A DNA stretch of 36,059 nt from a virus, in IMG/VR virus record IMGVR_UViG_3300021956_000037, positions 1 to 36,059 of that record. One strand, written 5' to 3'. The translations under genes and the position numbers were made by a program. This document shows positions 1 through 13,457 of this stretch, piece after piece (positions within the stretch are counted from its first letter, which is position 1; every line of letters begins with the position of its first letter). The notes under the pieces were generated by a model. That model ran no database searches. It saw only the letters and a list, made by a program, of their open reading frames with translations, and was not told the DNA's origin.

Positions 1-138
1 TTAGCTAACAACAGTGCTGTCTACGAGGTAAAGCCTGACGTTGGTCAGTTCATGCGTGAATGGTCTAACATCTATGAATCTCACTCCGGTGAGCGAGGAA
101 TCTTCAATCGTTATGCGTCAGAGCTTCAAGCAGAAAAG
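1..138. repeat. Terminal redundancy of the circular assembly (partner at 35922-36059)
   Basis: Bases 1-138 recur at 35922-36059 with a single difference (G at 117, T at 36038). The difference is the third base of an Ala codon (GCG/GCT) in nrdJ, so it is synonymous. Because the repeat lies inside an open gene and joining the ends restores a full-length protein, this is best read as overlap of a circular or circularly permuted map, not as a physical terminal repeat. Confidence 0.9.
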
Positions 139-1104
139 AATGGCCGTCGTAGCCTGGGTAAAGAATGGGGTACAAACCCTTGCAGCGAGATTATTCTTAG
201 ACCTTATCAATTTTGCAATCTTTCTTCCGTTATTGTTCGTAACGGGGATGATATGGATCGACTTCGTAACAAGGTACGCTTGGCAACGATTCTGGGCACT
301 TTTCAATCGACCATGACCCACTTCCCGTACCTGCGGAAGATCTGGCAGACCAACACCGAGGAAGAGCGTCTCCTCGGCGTGTCTATGACCGGTATTCTTG
401 ATAATCCGTTGCTGAACAGTGCCTACGACCTGGACCTGCCTAAGCGACTTGAGGAGTTGAAGAATGTTGCTATTGATACAAATGCTCGGATGGCTAACGA
501 TCTTGGCATCCCTGTGTCTGCCGCTATTACTTGCGTTAAACCGGAAGGCACTGTGTCTCAGCTCACGGGAACTGCTAGTGGTATCCATCCCCAGCATAGT
601 CAGTATTACATTCGCCGTGTGCGTTCTGACAACAAAGACCCTCTGACCAACTTCCTTAAGTCTCAAGGGTTCCCGTCTGAGCCGTGTGTGATGAAACCTG
701 ATTCAACCACTGTGTTTAGCTTTCCTCAGAAGGTGGGCGAAGGGGCGGTGTTACGGGAGGATCTAAGTGCTATTGAGCACCTGGACCTCTGGCTGGTATT
801 CCAGCGCCACTGGTGTGAGCATAAGCCTTCTGTGACCATTTCCGTGAACGAGAATGAATGGCCTAAAGTCGGTGCTTGGACTTGGGATCACTTCGATGAG
901 GTCACTGGCGTGTCTTACCTGCCCTACGATGGCGGTACGTATCGTCAGGCTCCCTACGAGGAGATCACTGCTGGTGAGTACCTCCAGATGGCTCTATCAA
1001 TGCCAGAAGACATCGATTGGGACGCATTCATCGAGGGAACTGATAACGTGGAAGGCGCTCAGATGCTATCCTGCACCGCTGGCGCTTGTGAGATTGCATT
1101 CTGA
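1..1104 (+). CDS. nrdJ: Adenosylcobalamin-dependent (class II) ribonucleotide reductase, 3' part of a gene split by the window ends
   Basis: This is the C-terminal 367 codons of a 635-residue protein whose first 268 codons start at 35118; the frame is continuous across the circular junction. The enzyme reduces ribonucleotides to deoxyribonucleotides using a B12-generated thiyl radical, supplying dNTPs for phage replication. Visible here are the active-site motif NPCSEI (Cys about 329 of the joined protein, catalytic Glu two residues later), the second redox Cys in FCNLSSV 11 residues on (about 340), and the C-terminal thiol pair in SCTAGACEIAF (about 626 and 631), which re-reduces the active site. 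These correspond to C408, C419, C731 and C736 of the Lactobacillus leichmannii monomeric enzyme. That enzyme has 739 residues, so this one is about 100 shorter. The last gene of the rightward unit except for a 49-codon ORF that starts on its stop codon. Confidence 0.93.
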   Translation, partial: LANNSAVYEVKPDVGQFMREWSNIYESHSGERGIFNRYASELQAEKNGRRSLGKEWGTNPCSEIILRPYQFCNLSSVIVRNGDDMDRLRNKVRLATILGTFQSTMTHFPYLRKIWQTNTEEERLLGVSMTGILDNPLLNSAYDLDLPKRLEELKNVAIDTNARMANDLGIPVSAAITCVKPEGTVSQLTGTASGIHPQHSQYYIRRVRSDNKDPLTNFLKSQGFPSEPCVMKPDSTTVFSFPQKVGEGAVLREDLSAIEHLDLWLVFQRHWCEHKPSVTISVNENEWPKVGAWTWDHFDEVTGVSYLPYDGGTYRQAPYEEITAGEYLQMALSMPEDIDWDAFIEGTDNVEGAQMLSCTAGACEIAF

Positions 1105-10529: not shown

Positions 10530-10820
10530 TTACCACGGAAGTCCAGTGGCTGCGGTGGGATTCTTCTCCGCAGCGATCTTTGCAGCCAAGGCAGCTTCAG
10601 TGGCTGCTTTGTCCACGCCAGAGGCCCACACCCAGGCCAGAACAGCTTCAGGAGTCAGGGAAGCATAAGGAACCGTAGGAGTCCCTTCTGTCCAACCAAC
10701 GGTGGAATAGATAGAGGCAGAGAAGTCTCCATCTACTGCCGTGGCAGTCCAGTGAGCAGCGGTAACGAAACCGTCAGAAGTACGGCGGTTTAAATCAGTA
10801 ATAGTCCAGGTTACGGTCAT
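10530..10820 (-). CDS. Conserved small protein downstream of tail fibres (DUF7936-like)
   Basis: This 96-residue protein starts TVTWTITDLNRRTSDGFV and continues with AAHWTATAVDGDFSAS. The middle carries YASLTPEAVLAWVW, then an Ala-rich helix and the end NPTAATGLPW. Related proteins occur directly after S74 fibre genes in many unrelated aquatic phages, so a structural or assembly role with fibres is plausible. The DUF number is from memory and uncertain. Its ribosome binding site (AAAGGAAA) lies in the last codons of the HNH gene, which matters for the insertion history of that gene. Confidence 0.7.
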   Translation of the reverse strand: MTVTWTITDLNRRTSDGFVTAAHWTATAVDGDFSASIYSTVGWTEGTPTVPYASLTPEAVLAWVWASGVDKAATEAALAAKIAAEKNPTAATGLPW

Positions 10821-10821
10821 T

Positions 10822-11427
10822 TCAGTTTCCTTTCAGTGCGGCTACGTCAGCCTTGAGTTGTTCAATGATGGCTTGCGAAAAAATCCAGCCTTTATACGGC
10901 TTACCTTCTCTGATGGCCTTGTCAACACAAGTTTGGCTGAAGCCCATCTGTCTTTTTTGTCTTGTTCCTGCCACCAAAACTTCTTCACCAGTATGAATAT
11001 TTTTAGCAAGAACGGGTTTAACCTTAGGGTTTGTAATTCCAAAAGCAGGTTTGTTTTTTGCAACATTCCCAAGCACTGCATAAGAGTGCAATCCGTTTTC
11101 TGATGCGGTAACCCACTCAAGATTTTCCATTCTGTTATCAGTTTTCACGCCGTTCTTGTGGTTGACTTGCGGTTTGTTTGATTGATTTTCAATAAATGCC
11201 CGAGCCACAAGACGATGAACATTGTGGTTTGACTTAACGCCATCAACGGAAAAACTGACCAAAAAATATCCTGATTTGCTTTTGCCCTGACGCAAAACTT
11301 TGCTAGGCGATTTTTTAAGGCCACCTTTTGCATGACTGACAAAACGCTCAATTGAACGCACATTGCCAAGATTACTCACCTCGTAATGAGTTTCAAAGCC
11401 AGCGCAAGGATGCCAAATTTCGTTCAT
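10822..11427 (-). CDS. HNH homing endonuclease (NUMOD4-HNH), free-standing
   Basis: A 201-residue protein with a NUMOD4 module at the N-terminus (NEIWHPCAGFETHYEVSNLG, then NVRSIERF), an HNH core (His71 in HRLVARAF, NHKNG at 89-93, ENLEWVTASEN at 101-111) and a NUMOD1-like C-terminal part (PVLAKNIHTGEEVLVAGT, QKRQMGF, GWIF). Such enzymes nick or cut a homing site near their own gene and spread by repair copying. The ATG overlaps the stop of the S74 fibre gene as ATGA. The final residues (AIIEQLKADVAALKGN) do not belong to this family; they resemble the coiled-coil end of the fibre itself. The gene also looks more AT-rich than its neighbours, fitting recent arrival. Confidence 0.9.
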   Translation of the reverse strand: MNEIWHPCAGFETHYEVSNLGNVRSIERFVSHAKGGLKKSPSKVLRQGKSKSGYFLVSFSVDGVKSNHNVHRLVARAFIENQSNKPQVNHKNGVKTDNRMENLEWVTASENGLHSYAVLGNVAKNKPAFGITNPKVKPVLAKNIHTGEEVLVAGTRQKRQMGFSQTCVDKAIREGKPYKGWIFSQAIIEQLKADVAALKGN

Positions 11428-13457
11428 TTGGCCTCCAATACAGCAACACGAGCCTGAAGGTCTTTAATCAAACCATGAGCCTCTTGTAAAGCCGCTGTAA
11501 GTGTTGCAACCAAGAAGCTGGTGTCGATACCTTGGTAGACAGGGTTACCTTCAGCGTCCACAGCGTCTTTCTCACCAGTTACGCATTGGGGCACAACTTC
11601 AGCCAGTTCATGGGCAATGAAGCCTTCACCGTCAGAGCCGTCAACTTTCCATTTGTAGGTGACAGGCTTGAGCGCAGCGACCTTTGCCAGCGCACCAGTC
11701 ATCGGCTGGATGTTTTCTTTCAGGCGGTAGTCGGAAGATGTGTTGTAGGCAGTGCTAGATCCGCCAGAAGTAATTGTTCCTACGGAGACAACACTAGAAT
11801 TAAAGAAACGTACTTGCACTGCTGCATTTGAACCTGAAGCATAGGCGTGATATACGGAAATCCCGTCCGCACTTGATGATGCAGAGCCTTGATTAAAAGT
11901 TCCAGCAACACCGCCGCTTGCGTAAACTCCAAATTTCTCACTAATAAAAGGAGAAGTACGCCCCACCAGCAAGTTACCGCTGGAGTCGATACGGGCGCGT
12001 TCGGTGGAGTTGGTGTACAACTTCAGATTGTTTGCGCCTAATGCGTAAATGTTCAAATCATTTGTCGCACCTGCTTGGAATACTGTACTGCCTTGAACGG
12101 TAATTTGCAGCGTATTTACATCGCTGTAATTTGTTTTGAACTCAGAGTAATAGCCTGAGTTTTCAGTCCTGCTTGATCGAATGACGCCATAGACATCAAG
12201 TTTTGAATTTGCGCTTGTAGCCCCAACTACCAAATTCCCACTCGCATCCAGCGTCATTGCCGAGGTAAATGAGAAAGTGCCAGACCCTGTCCCTGCGGTT
12301 TGCCAAGTATGTGCGCCTAGGTTTTGGTAATAGTTTGAAGCGTAGCCAGATACGATTTTGTTGTACCCGCCGCTGTAATACCAGTTTGCTCCAAAGTTGT
12401 TGTATTCACCAGAGGCAACAATTGCTTTGTTACTTCCCATTGCAATTTGACCGCCAGAACTCCAAGCACTCGGCGTAACCCCCAATCCGAGGTTACCGGA
12501 GGAGTCGAGGCGCATACGCTCAGTCAAAGCACCAGTAGTGACTGCTCTGGTGTTGAAAACCATATAGCCACCATCTGCGGTTGTAGCACCAGCAAACGCA
12601 CCATCAATAGCCGCTAAGCCGTTATTGCTTGTAGTACCTGTAAAAACAAGTCTTGCACCAACCCCTGCACCAACTGCTTGTGCGTTGTTCAACCAAATTG
12701 GCTCTTGAATACCAGCGCCCGATGTAGAAACATGCAGTTTTACACTAGGGCTGCTCGTCCCAATACCCAGCCCTGTGCTGGTTAGGCGCATTTGTTCGGA
12801 GGGGCTGCTGCCAACTCTAAATGCGAAATACGAGGAAAGCGAAGTTATTGGGACAAACGCAGAAGTGCTTCTGTTGTAGGCTTGAAAGTAAGGGCCGCTG
12901 TCTACGCCAGAAGGGTCTATCTCTAAACCTGCCGCCCCCGAAGCAGAAACAACAAACGGCAAAACTGGTGAACTTGTTCCAACACCCAAATTCGTCCCGT
13001 TAAACGTCAGCGCAGAACCAGTGGTGACTACCTTGGAGCCGTTGAGATACGCTACTCCGTTGGCTGTGCCGCCTGACAAAGTAGTTGTACTAGATGCACT
13101 CAAGGTCGTGAAAGAACCGGCAGCAGCAGCAGTGCCTCCAATGGCTGGCGGTGATGCCAAGTAAGTTGAAAAGCCTGTTCCAGACACTGTGGAAGAAGCC
13201 GATAGCGTGGTAAAAGCACCTGTAGAAGCCGTGGTAGCCCCCACAGTGGTTCCGTTGATAGAACCACCAGTGATAGCCACTGCGTTAGCTTCCTGGTTAC
13301 CTAATCCACCTACCAGCTTGACAACAGTGCCTCCGCTGTCTTTGGTGTATAGTTTCTTGTCAGTTACGTTAACCGCAAGTTCACCTTGAGTCAAGTCTCC
13401 AGAGACAGGAACCGCAGAAGCAGTGCTGGAGTTTTTAGTTACGATAGTAGAAGCCAT
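11424..13457 (-). CDS. Tail fibre/spike with C-terminal S74 intramolecular chaperone
   Basis: This 677-residue protein has a fibre-type N-terminal anchor (TQGELAVNVTDKKLYTKDSG), then repeated beta segments of the form RMRLDSSGNLGLGVTPSAW and ARIDSSGNLLVGRTSP, and ends with a peptidase S74 chaperone domain (about 574-677). That domain folds the trimer and then cleaves itself off; SSDYRLKENI contains the expected Ser and Lys six and one residues before the Glu, and EGFIAHELAEVVP is the other conserved block. The last 15 residues form a short coiled coil (LIKDLQARVAVLEAK). AAAGGAAAA precedes the ATG. It would bind the host receptor. The HNH gene is inserted directly after it. Confidence 0.92.
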   Translation of the reverse strand: MASTIVTKNSSTASAVPVSGDLTQGELAVNVTDKKLYTKDSGGTVVKLVGGLGNQEANAVAITGGSINGTTVGATTASTGAFTTLSASSTVSGTGFSTYLASPPAIGGTAAAAGSFTTLSASSTTTLSGGTANGVAYLNGSKVVTTGSALTFNGTNLGVGTSSPVLPFVVSASGAAGLEIDPSGVDSGPYFQAYNRSTSAFVPITSLSSYFAFRVGSSPSEQMRLTSTGLGIGTSSPSVKLHVSTSGAGIQEPIWLNNAQAVGAGVGARLVFTGTTSNNGLAAIDGAFAGATTADGGYMVFNTRAVTTGALTERMRLDSSGNLGLGVTPSAWSSGGQIAMGSNKAIVASGEYNNFGANWYYSGGYNKIVSGYASNYYQNLGAHTWQTAGTGSGTFSFTSAMTLDASGNLVVGATSANSKLDVYGVIRSSRTENSGYYSEFKTNYSDVNTLQITVQGSTVFQAGATNDLNIYALGANNLKLYTNSTERARIDSSGNLLVGRTSPFISEKFGVYASGGVAGTFNQGSASSSADGISVYHAYASGSNAAVQVRFFNSSVVSVGTITSGGSSTAYNTSSDYRLKENIQPMTGALAKVAALKPVTYKWKVDGSDGEGFIAHELAEVVPQCVTGEKDAVDAEGNPVYQGIDTSFLVATLTAALQEAHGLIKDLQARVAVLEAK

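Follow-up and report, generated by a model that had tools for sequence, protein, structure and literature searches.

A NUMOD4-HNH gene behind a phage S74-fibre gene that appears to supply a substitute fibre end and to read through the displaced native one

Homing genes must not harm the gene they enter, and introns, inteins and intergenic sites are the well-known solutions to this problem. The locus described here resides in a viral stretch of DNA of 36,059 nucleotides (hereafter the window) and raises the question of how an HNH gene located directly behind a fibre gene came to end in residues which resemble a fibre terminus, and of what became of the fibre's own end. A sequence-only reading of the window had suggested that the HNH gene entered just before the original fibre terminus, whereby the fibre received a replacement end and the old end was fused to the endonuclease. 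The features of the locus are as follows.

11424..13457, minus strand: fibre gene, 677 aa, with a C-terminal Peptidase_S74 (intramolecular chaperone) domain (PF13884, E 1.8e-13, residues 575-626)
11427..11481, minus strand: replacement fibre tail, i.e., the final G of a GAG codon plus AHGLIKDLQARVAVLEAK, delimited by the end of homology to HNH-less fibres
11424..11427, minus strand: ATGA overlap of fibre stop and HNH start, with shifted reading frame (direct sequence)
10822-11427, minus strand: HNH ORF, 201 aa (direct sequence)
10876..11427, minus strand: HNH endonuclease proper, residues 1-184, without a stop codon of its own (Pfam domains)
10825..10875, minus strand: displaced native fibre end QAIIEQLKADVAALKGN, now the HNH C-terminus (identical DNA ends the fibre in L003 and L011)
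10825..10833, minus strand: AAAGGAAAC, putative ribosome binding site of the next gene, within the displaced tail (direct sequence; same position in the HNH-less L003 and L011)
10822..10824, minus strand: native fibre stop codon borrowed by the HNH gene, 1 nt before the next start (direct sequence)
10530..10820, minus strand: downstream DUF7936 gene (PF25590, E 3.8e-23)
10876..11481, minus strand: presumed mobile unit, 606 nt, i.e., replacement tail, stop and HNH ORF (empty-site comparison L001/L145)

Within the HNH ORF, NUMOD4 (PF07463) was identified at residues 3-59 (E 1.3e-12, 48.2 bits, Pfam cut-off 23.4) and HNH_3 (PF13392) at residues 70-112 (E 8e-10, 38.6 bits, Pfam cut-off 24.8); with both cut-offs passed, the protein belongs to the NUMOD4-HNH endonuclease proteins, and the S74-fibre gene is the host gene of the HNH element. 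The ORF reads in frame through the displaced native tail up to the native stop and the start context of the next gene, a gap of one base separating its end from the DUF7936 ATG, and DUF7936 homologues directly follow the fibre gene in many HNH-less relatives. The same arrangement recurs, at 100% identity over 6250 bp, in a second IMG/VR contig (L001), which speaks against an artefact of assembly, provided that the two records do not derive from the same reads. At the far end of the window (52-1104), what appears by eye to be the C-terminal part of a ribonucleotide reductase-like protein is cut by the window's left end.

The origin of the HNH C-terminus was revealed by comparison with the HNH-less loci L003 and L011, whose fibre genes end in the same residues, followed by the stop, one base and the DUF7936 start. 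Starting at CAAGCC and running through the ATG into DUF7936, the window and L003 share 66 identical bp and remain ~95% identical across 274 nt, and L011 likewise matches the 3' end of the window HNH gene from CAAGCC on. The expectation that HNH-less fibres should end in IIEQLKADVAALKGN right before the DUF7936 gene was thus borne out at the DNA level at two loci, and the other tail, far from having left no trace in HNH-less relatives, is present there, which identifies the HNH C-terminus as the old fibre end. The native origin proposed for its last 18 residues therefore stands, with their number to be corrected to 17, as the shared block starts at Q185; the ribosome binding site-like motif said to lie within the displaced-tail codons was found in the sequence and in the same place in both HNH-less loci, its function being putative.

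Placement of the insertion just before the fibre terminus and provision of a replacement end were likewise confirmed, whereas the assumption that solely the last residues of the fibre were changed has to be given up. The backbones flanking the fibre in the window and L003 are ~94-96% identical (window 15974-13313 on one side, 10875-7003 on the other), but from 13.3 to 10.9 kb the fibre body is for the most part different, so that in this lineage the HNH gene arrived in company with another distal fibre, which was joined onto the native tail. Between 13457 and 10875 only short conserved blocks are left amid ~95% identical backbones, the distal fibre having been exchanged, and by this comparison the region appears to be a fibre-swapping hotspot. 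Neither L003 nor L131 makes a good single empty site for the window, owing to a different S74 type or a different tail; L145, with an uninterrupted HNH-less fibre gene of the window's S74 type and nearly the same tail, serves better.

Comparison of occupied and contiguous empty sites (13 comparisons, 12 HNH loci) places the insert at one point, namely the Gln-Glu codons (CAAGA^R) which close the conserved A-A-I/L-Q-E motif of the S74 domain, and hence occupied and empty alleles at a precise site, as characteristic of a free-standing homing endonuclease gene, exist for 12 HNH loci. Left homology stops in or just before the Gln-Glu codons, running into shared bases just past them in two pairs, and right homology is back after 0-12 bases, corresponding to lost target bases. 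The net inserts (515, 605, 443, 452, 590, 410, 440, 440, 437, 437, 437, 602 and 464 nt) are all 2 mod 3, as is expected if fibre translation ends in one frame, that of the HNH begins in an overlapping one and the displaced tail is read in the latter. The cleanest pair is L050/L153, where a 605-nt insert lies between CAAGAG and CAACAAGCC with no bases lost, a right flank 100% identical over 60 nt and 2 kb upstream at 84%. The flanks of L098/L192 are 92.7% (left) and 95.6% (right) identical and the right flank of L091/L141 is 86% identical over 1957 bp; these three pairs and L077/L129 are colinear well past the junction, further pairs being L096/L018, L056 and L076/L139, L087 and L090/L138, L088/L009 and L064/L182. 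For L001/L145, S74 homology ends at CAAGA, four target bases are missing and homology resumes at CAAGCC, which yields a unit of 606 nt and a net insert of 602 nt, and homology of the window to the HNH-less fibres of L018, L131, L145 and L155 stops at CAAGA/CAAGAG (window 11482/11481). The third position of the Glu codon preceding the junction is G in 28/34 HNH-bearing fibres and A in 73/96 HNH-less ones (Fisher p about 8e-10, relatedness ignored), which would fit either an element that starts at this G or a target site that has changed synonymously. Other HNH or HNH-AP2-like ORFs were seen by eye at this fibre/DUF7936 junction in other phages (L002 and L024-L026, before 4001; L178, after 3354; L098, after 4504), and endonuclease genes seem to have a hotspot on the 3' side of these fibres.

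Scans with the window HNH protein yielded 38 non-redundant close relatives, so that the event read from this phage, correct as to site and tail swap, is to be regarded as one instance of a widespread family and not as its first origin. An S74-type tail is present on all 38 and lies in frame in 37, the sole exception being L074, whose tail matches better in another frame. Automatic detection found an S74 ORF immediately upstream in nearly all of them, the exceptions being L071 (upstream ORF with an S74-like tail below threshold) and L069 and L094 (at or near a contig edge). Stop-start overlaps (ATGA or TAATG) occur in nearly all relatives, and in most the native stop lies at most 20 nt from the next start. 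When the last 20 residues of the 38 HNHs were compared with 97 native S74 tails (BLOSUM62 local), the mean score was 58 in the correct frame, as against 19 and 18 in the two remaining ones, and 57 distant NUMOD4-HNH proteins scored 19 on average and 28 at most, whereby chance likeness of the tails is excluded. The distant proteins carry no S74-type tail and none has an S74 gene upstream; the tail is hence atypical of the wider family, as had been claimed, and did not turn up on these HNH relatives away from the S74 site. A scan of genome contigs returned only distant NUMOD4-HNH proteins, 0 of them S74-adjacent. Whole-core matches in named phage isolates are ~52% identical at best among the matches listed; a short-motif search of these isolates gave ~70% matches in Staphylococcus phages, and where an overlapping annotation exists, ribonucleotide reductase is among the genes named, not a fibre. 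The displaced tails vary among the HNH copies (LKAEFDAYKATHP, LKARLDAANL, QQALIAALQADVAALKGQA, TARITALESA, NDLKARIETLEAK and others). The part between HNH domain and tail (window 10876-11060; L061, L078, L082, L098) exists in three versions, of which one is long ('GFSQTCVDKAIREGKPYKGWTF' type), one is NUMOD3-like ('NKGKTLPKFSDERKAQISERMK' type) and one consists of almost nothing, as if DNA-binding modules had been swapped; in those tested, no domain was recognised in this variable region by Pfam with a loose threshold.

As to what moves, the mobile unit would comprise the replacement fibre tail, the stop and the HNH ORF without a stop of its own. Replacement-tail distances correlate with those of the HNH core (Mantel r 0.40, p 2e-4) and not with those of the fibre's own S74 domain (r 0.07, p 0.21), p values which overstate independence as the sequences are related; HNH core and displaced tail give r 0.29, i.e., not zero. 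Mapped onto the weakly supported HNH tree, replacement-tail classes require 12 changes versus a shuffled mean of 20.4 (minimum 16), and displaced-tail classes at least 17 versus 22.6 (minimum 19). The replacement tail thus follows the HNH and not the S74 domain. In L166 (3266-3340) the fibre carries an AHGLIK replacement-type tail without an HNH gene, and the ATGAC which elsewhere starts the HNH constitutes the DUF7936 start. This locus looks like a cured copy, in which recombination at the ATGAC repeat precisely removed the HNH and left a scar, an ancestral HNH-less state being a possible alternative. Several replacement tails open with the same QQALI codons as empty sites, and the idea that the replacement tail alone renders occupied alleles immune is unsupported, since some tails share these codons with empty sites.

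Taken as a whole, the locus is most likely occupied by a free-standing homing endonuclease gene of the NUMOD4-HNH kind which has specialised in the 3' ends of S74-fibre genes in phages, a reading drawn from sequence comparison. It has to be weighed against the idea that ordinary homologous recombination swaps distal fibre ends, with an HNH gene fixed behind some fibres travelling along and the junction marking the crossover point. The similar backbones of the window and L003 around a largely different fibre body as well as the mosaic nature of native S74 tails would fit such a passenger role. Against it, left homology breaks off at an unchanging codon position in one pair after another, also where both flanks are colinear; the replacement tail goes with the HNH instead of the S74 domain, and the junction bears the GAG footprint. 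The passenger role is hence rather unlikely, even though some junctions may result from ordinary recombination, the native S74 tails being mosaic.

It was further considered that the HNH protein itself uses an acquired coiled-coil tail, e.g., to oligomerise or to bind the fibre chaperone, so that selection for the protein would account for the fusion being in frame in 37/38 relatives. This is very unlikely, as the tail is shortened or lost in several copies (ELKASHP in L054/L057, TIKARLDAAGL in L048, NISALEQA in L061, a frameshift in L074), its type varies freely and the frame is explained more simply by borrowing of a native stop which usually lies at most 20 nt from the next start. A merely convergent likeness between S74 tails and a C-terminal coiled coil native to the HNH, both being short heptad-type helices by sequence, has a negligible probability: identical bases run for 66 positions into the next gene, the 60 nt shared by L050 and L153 match completely and the 57 control HNHs lack the tail, and DNA-level identity rules convergence out. 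An intein is excluded, as a stop codon closes the fibre frame ahead of that of the HNH and net insert lengths are 2 mod 3; likewise, a group I intron would have to be removed to restore the host product, whereas the fibre has its own stop and needs no splicing.

The closest parallel to the homing gene proposed here was identified in fungal mitochondria, where endonuclease ORFs come with a foreign C-terminus which takes the place of the displaced native one, as reported for Allomyces atp6 and for Glomus atp6, atp9, cox2 and nad3 (PMC3630166). Like these mobile ORFs, the phage element lies near the 3' end of a gene, continues the frame of the host gene into a substitute C-terminus and has the native C-terminus displaced 3' of the endonuclease, the substitute end being foreign to the host lineage and following the element (r 0.40 versus 0.07; 12 changes versus 20.4). 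Unlike them, it encodes an HNH enzyme instead of a LAGLIDADG or GIY-YIG one, is not mitochondrial, occupies one fixed site in one protein domain, carries the displaced end fused in frame where theirs is a downstream remnant, and shows the stop/start overlap (PMC3630166). Excerpts of a review of T4 homing endonucleases describe elements between genes or splitting a gene (Aeh1 nrdA by mobE; T4 gene 60 by mobA), and the free-standing homing endonucleases mobA-E and segA-G share with the present element that they are phage-borne, lie between phage genes, in some cases overlap stop-to-start with the upstream gene and are expected to co-convert their flanks, whereas none is described in these excerpts with a replacement gene end (PMC2988022). 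The I-HmuI-like HNH endonucleases of lactococcal Skunavirus resemble it as phage HNH enzymes with variable C-terminal regions and fixed insertion locations; in the excerpts of that report, however, C-terminal variation is ascribed to DNA binding and displaced host-gene ends are not described (PMC12724721). No phage precedent for a C-terminus-replacing endonuclease gene was found in the open-access papers searched. By analogy, the mechanism is thus like that of the mitochondrial elements without membership among them, and by protein family the enzyme is a NUMOD4-HNH free-standing phage endonuclease.

Cleavage and homing by the HNH protein are inferred. The endonuclease would cut an empty site near CAAGA, and repair from the occupied allele would rely on conserved S74 codons to the left and on tail or downstream sequence to the right, a process expected to copy the substitute tail and the HNH gene into the recipient, often together with more of the distal fibre. 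The fibre would tolerate the insert, since the C-terminal helix after the S74 domain becomes swapped for a similar coiled-coil-like one and the chaperone should still work. A solved-structure search with the S74 region returned weak matches only, the best (E 0.028) being a tail-fibre chain ending in a similar VATLVKAVQELRSQVDALKAQV stretch. The next gene would keep its start signals, and as the fibre keeps a coiled-coil-like end the element could spread at little cost. The displaced tail, truncated or frameshifted in L048, L054, L057, L061 and L074, probably has no role in the HNH protein and is probably a passenger which mainly supplies a stop codon and translation coupling.

The locus would represent a phage solution, otherwise found only in fungal mitochondria, in which a homing gene brings a spare end for its host gene and takes over the old end, the stop and the start signals of the next gene. 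As a practical consequence, annotation should consider that neither these HNH proteins nor the fibres preceding them have native ends, and the many natural empty and occupied alleles render the model directly testable. The target is the chaperone of tail fibres, proteins which decide on host range, and the element may push fibre modules between phages. More tentatively, and with the odds rather against it, these genes could constitute a class of homing elements found across phages which swap C-termini and are devoted to the S74 chaperone domain; by cutting the conserved chaperone site and co-converting its flanks, they would drive the exchange of distal fibre (host-range) modules.
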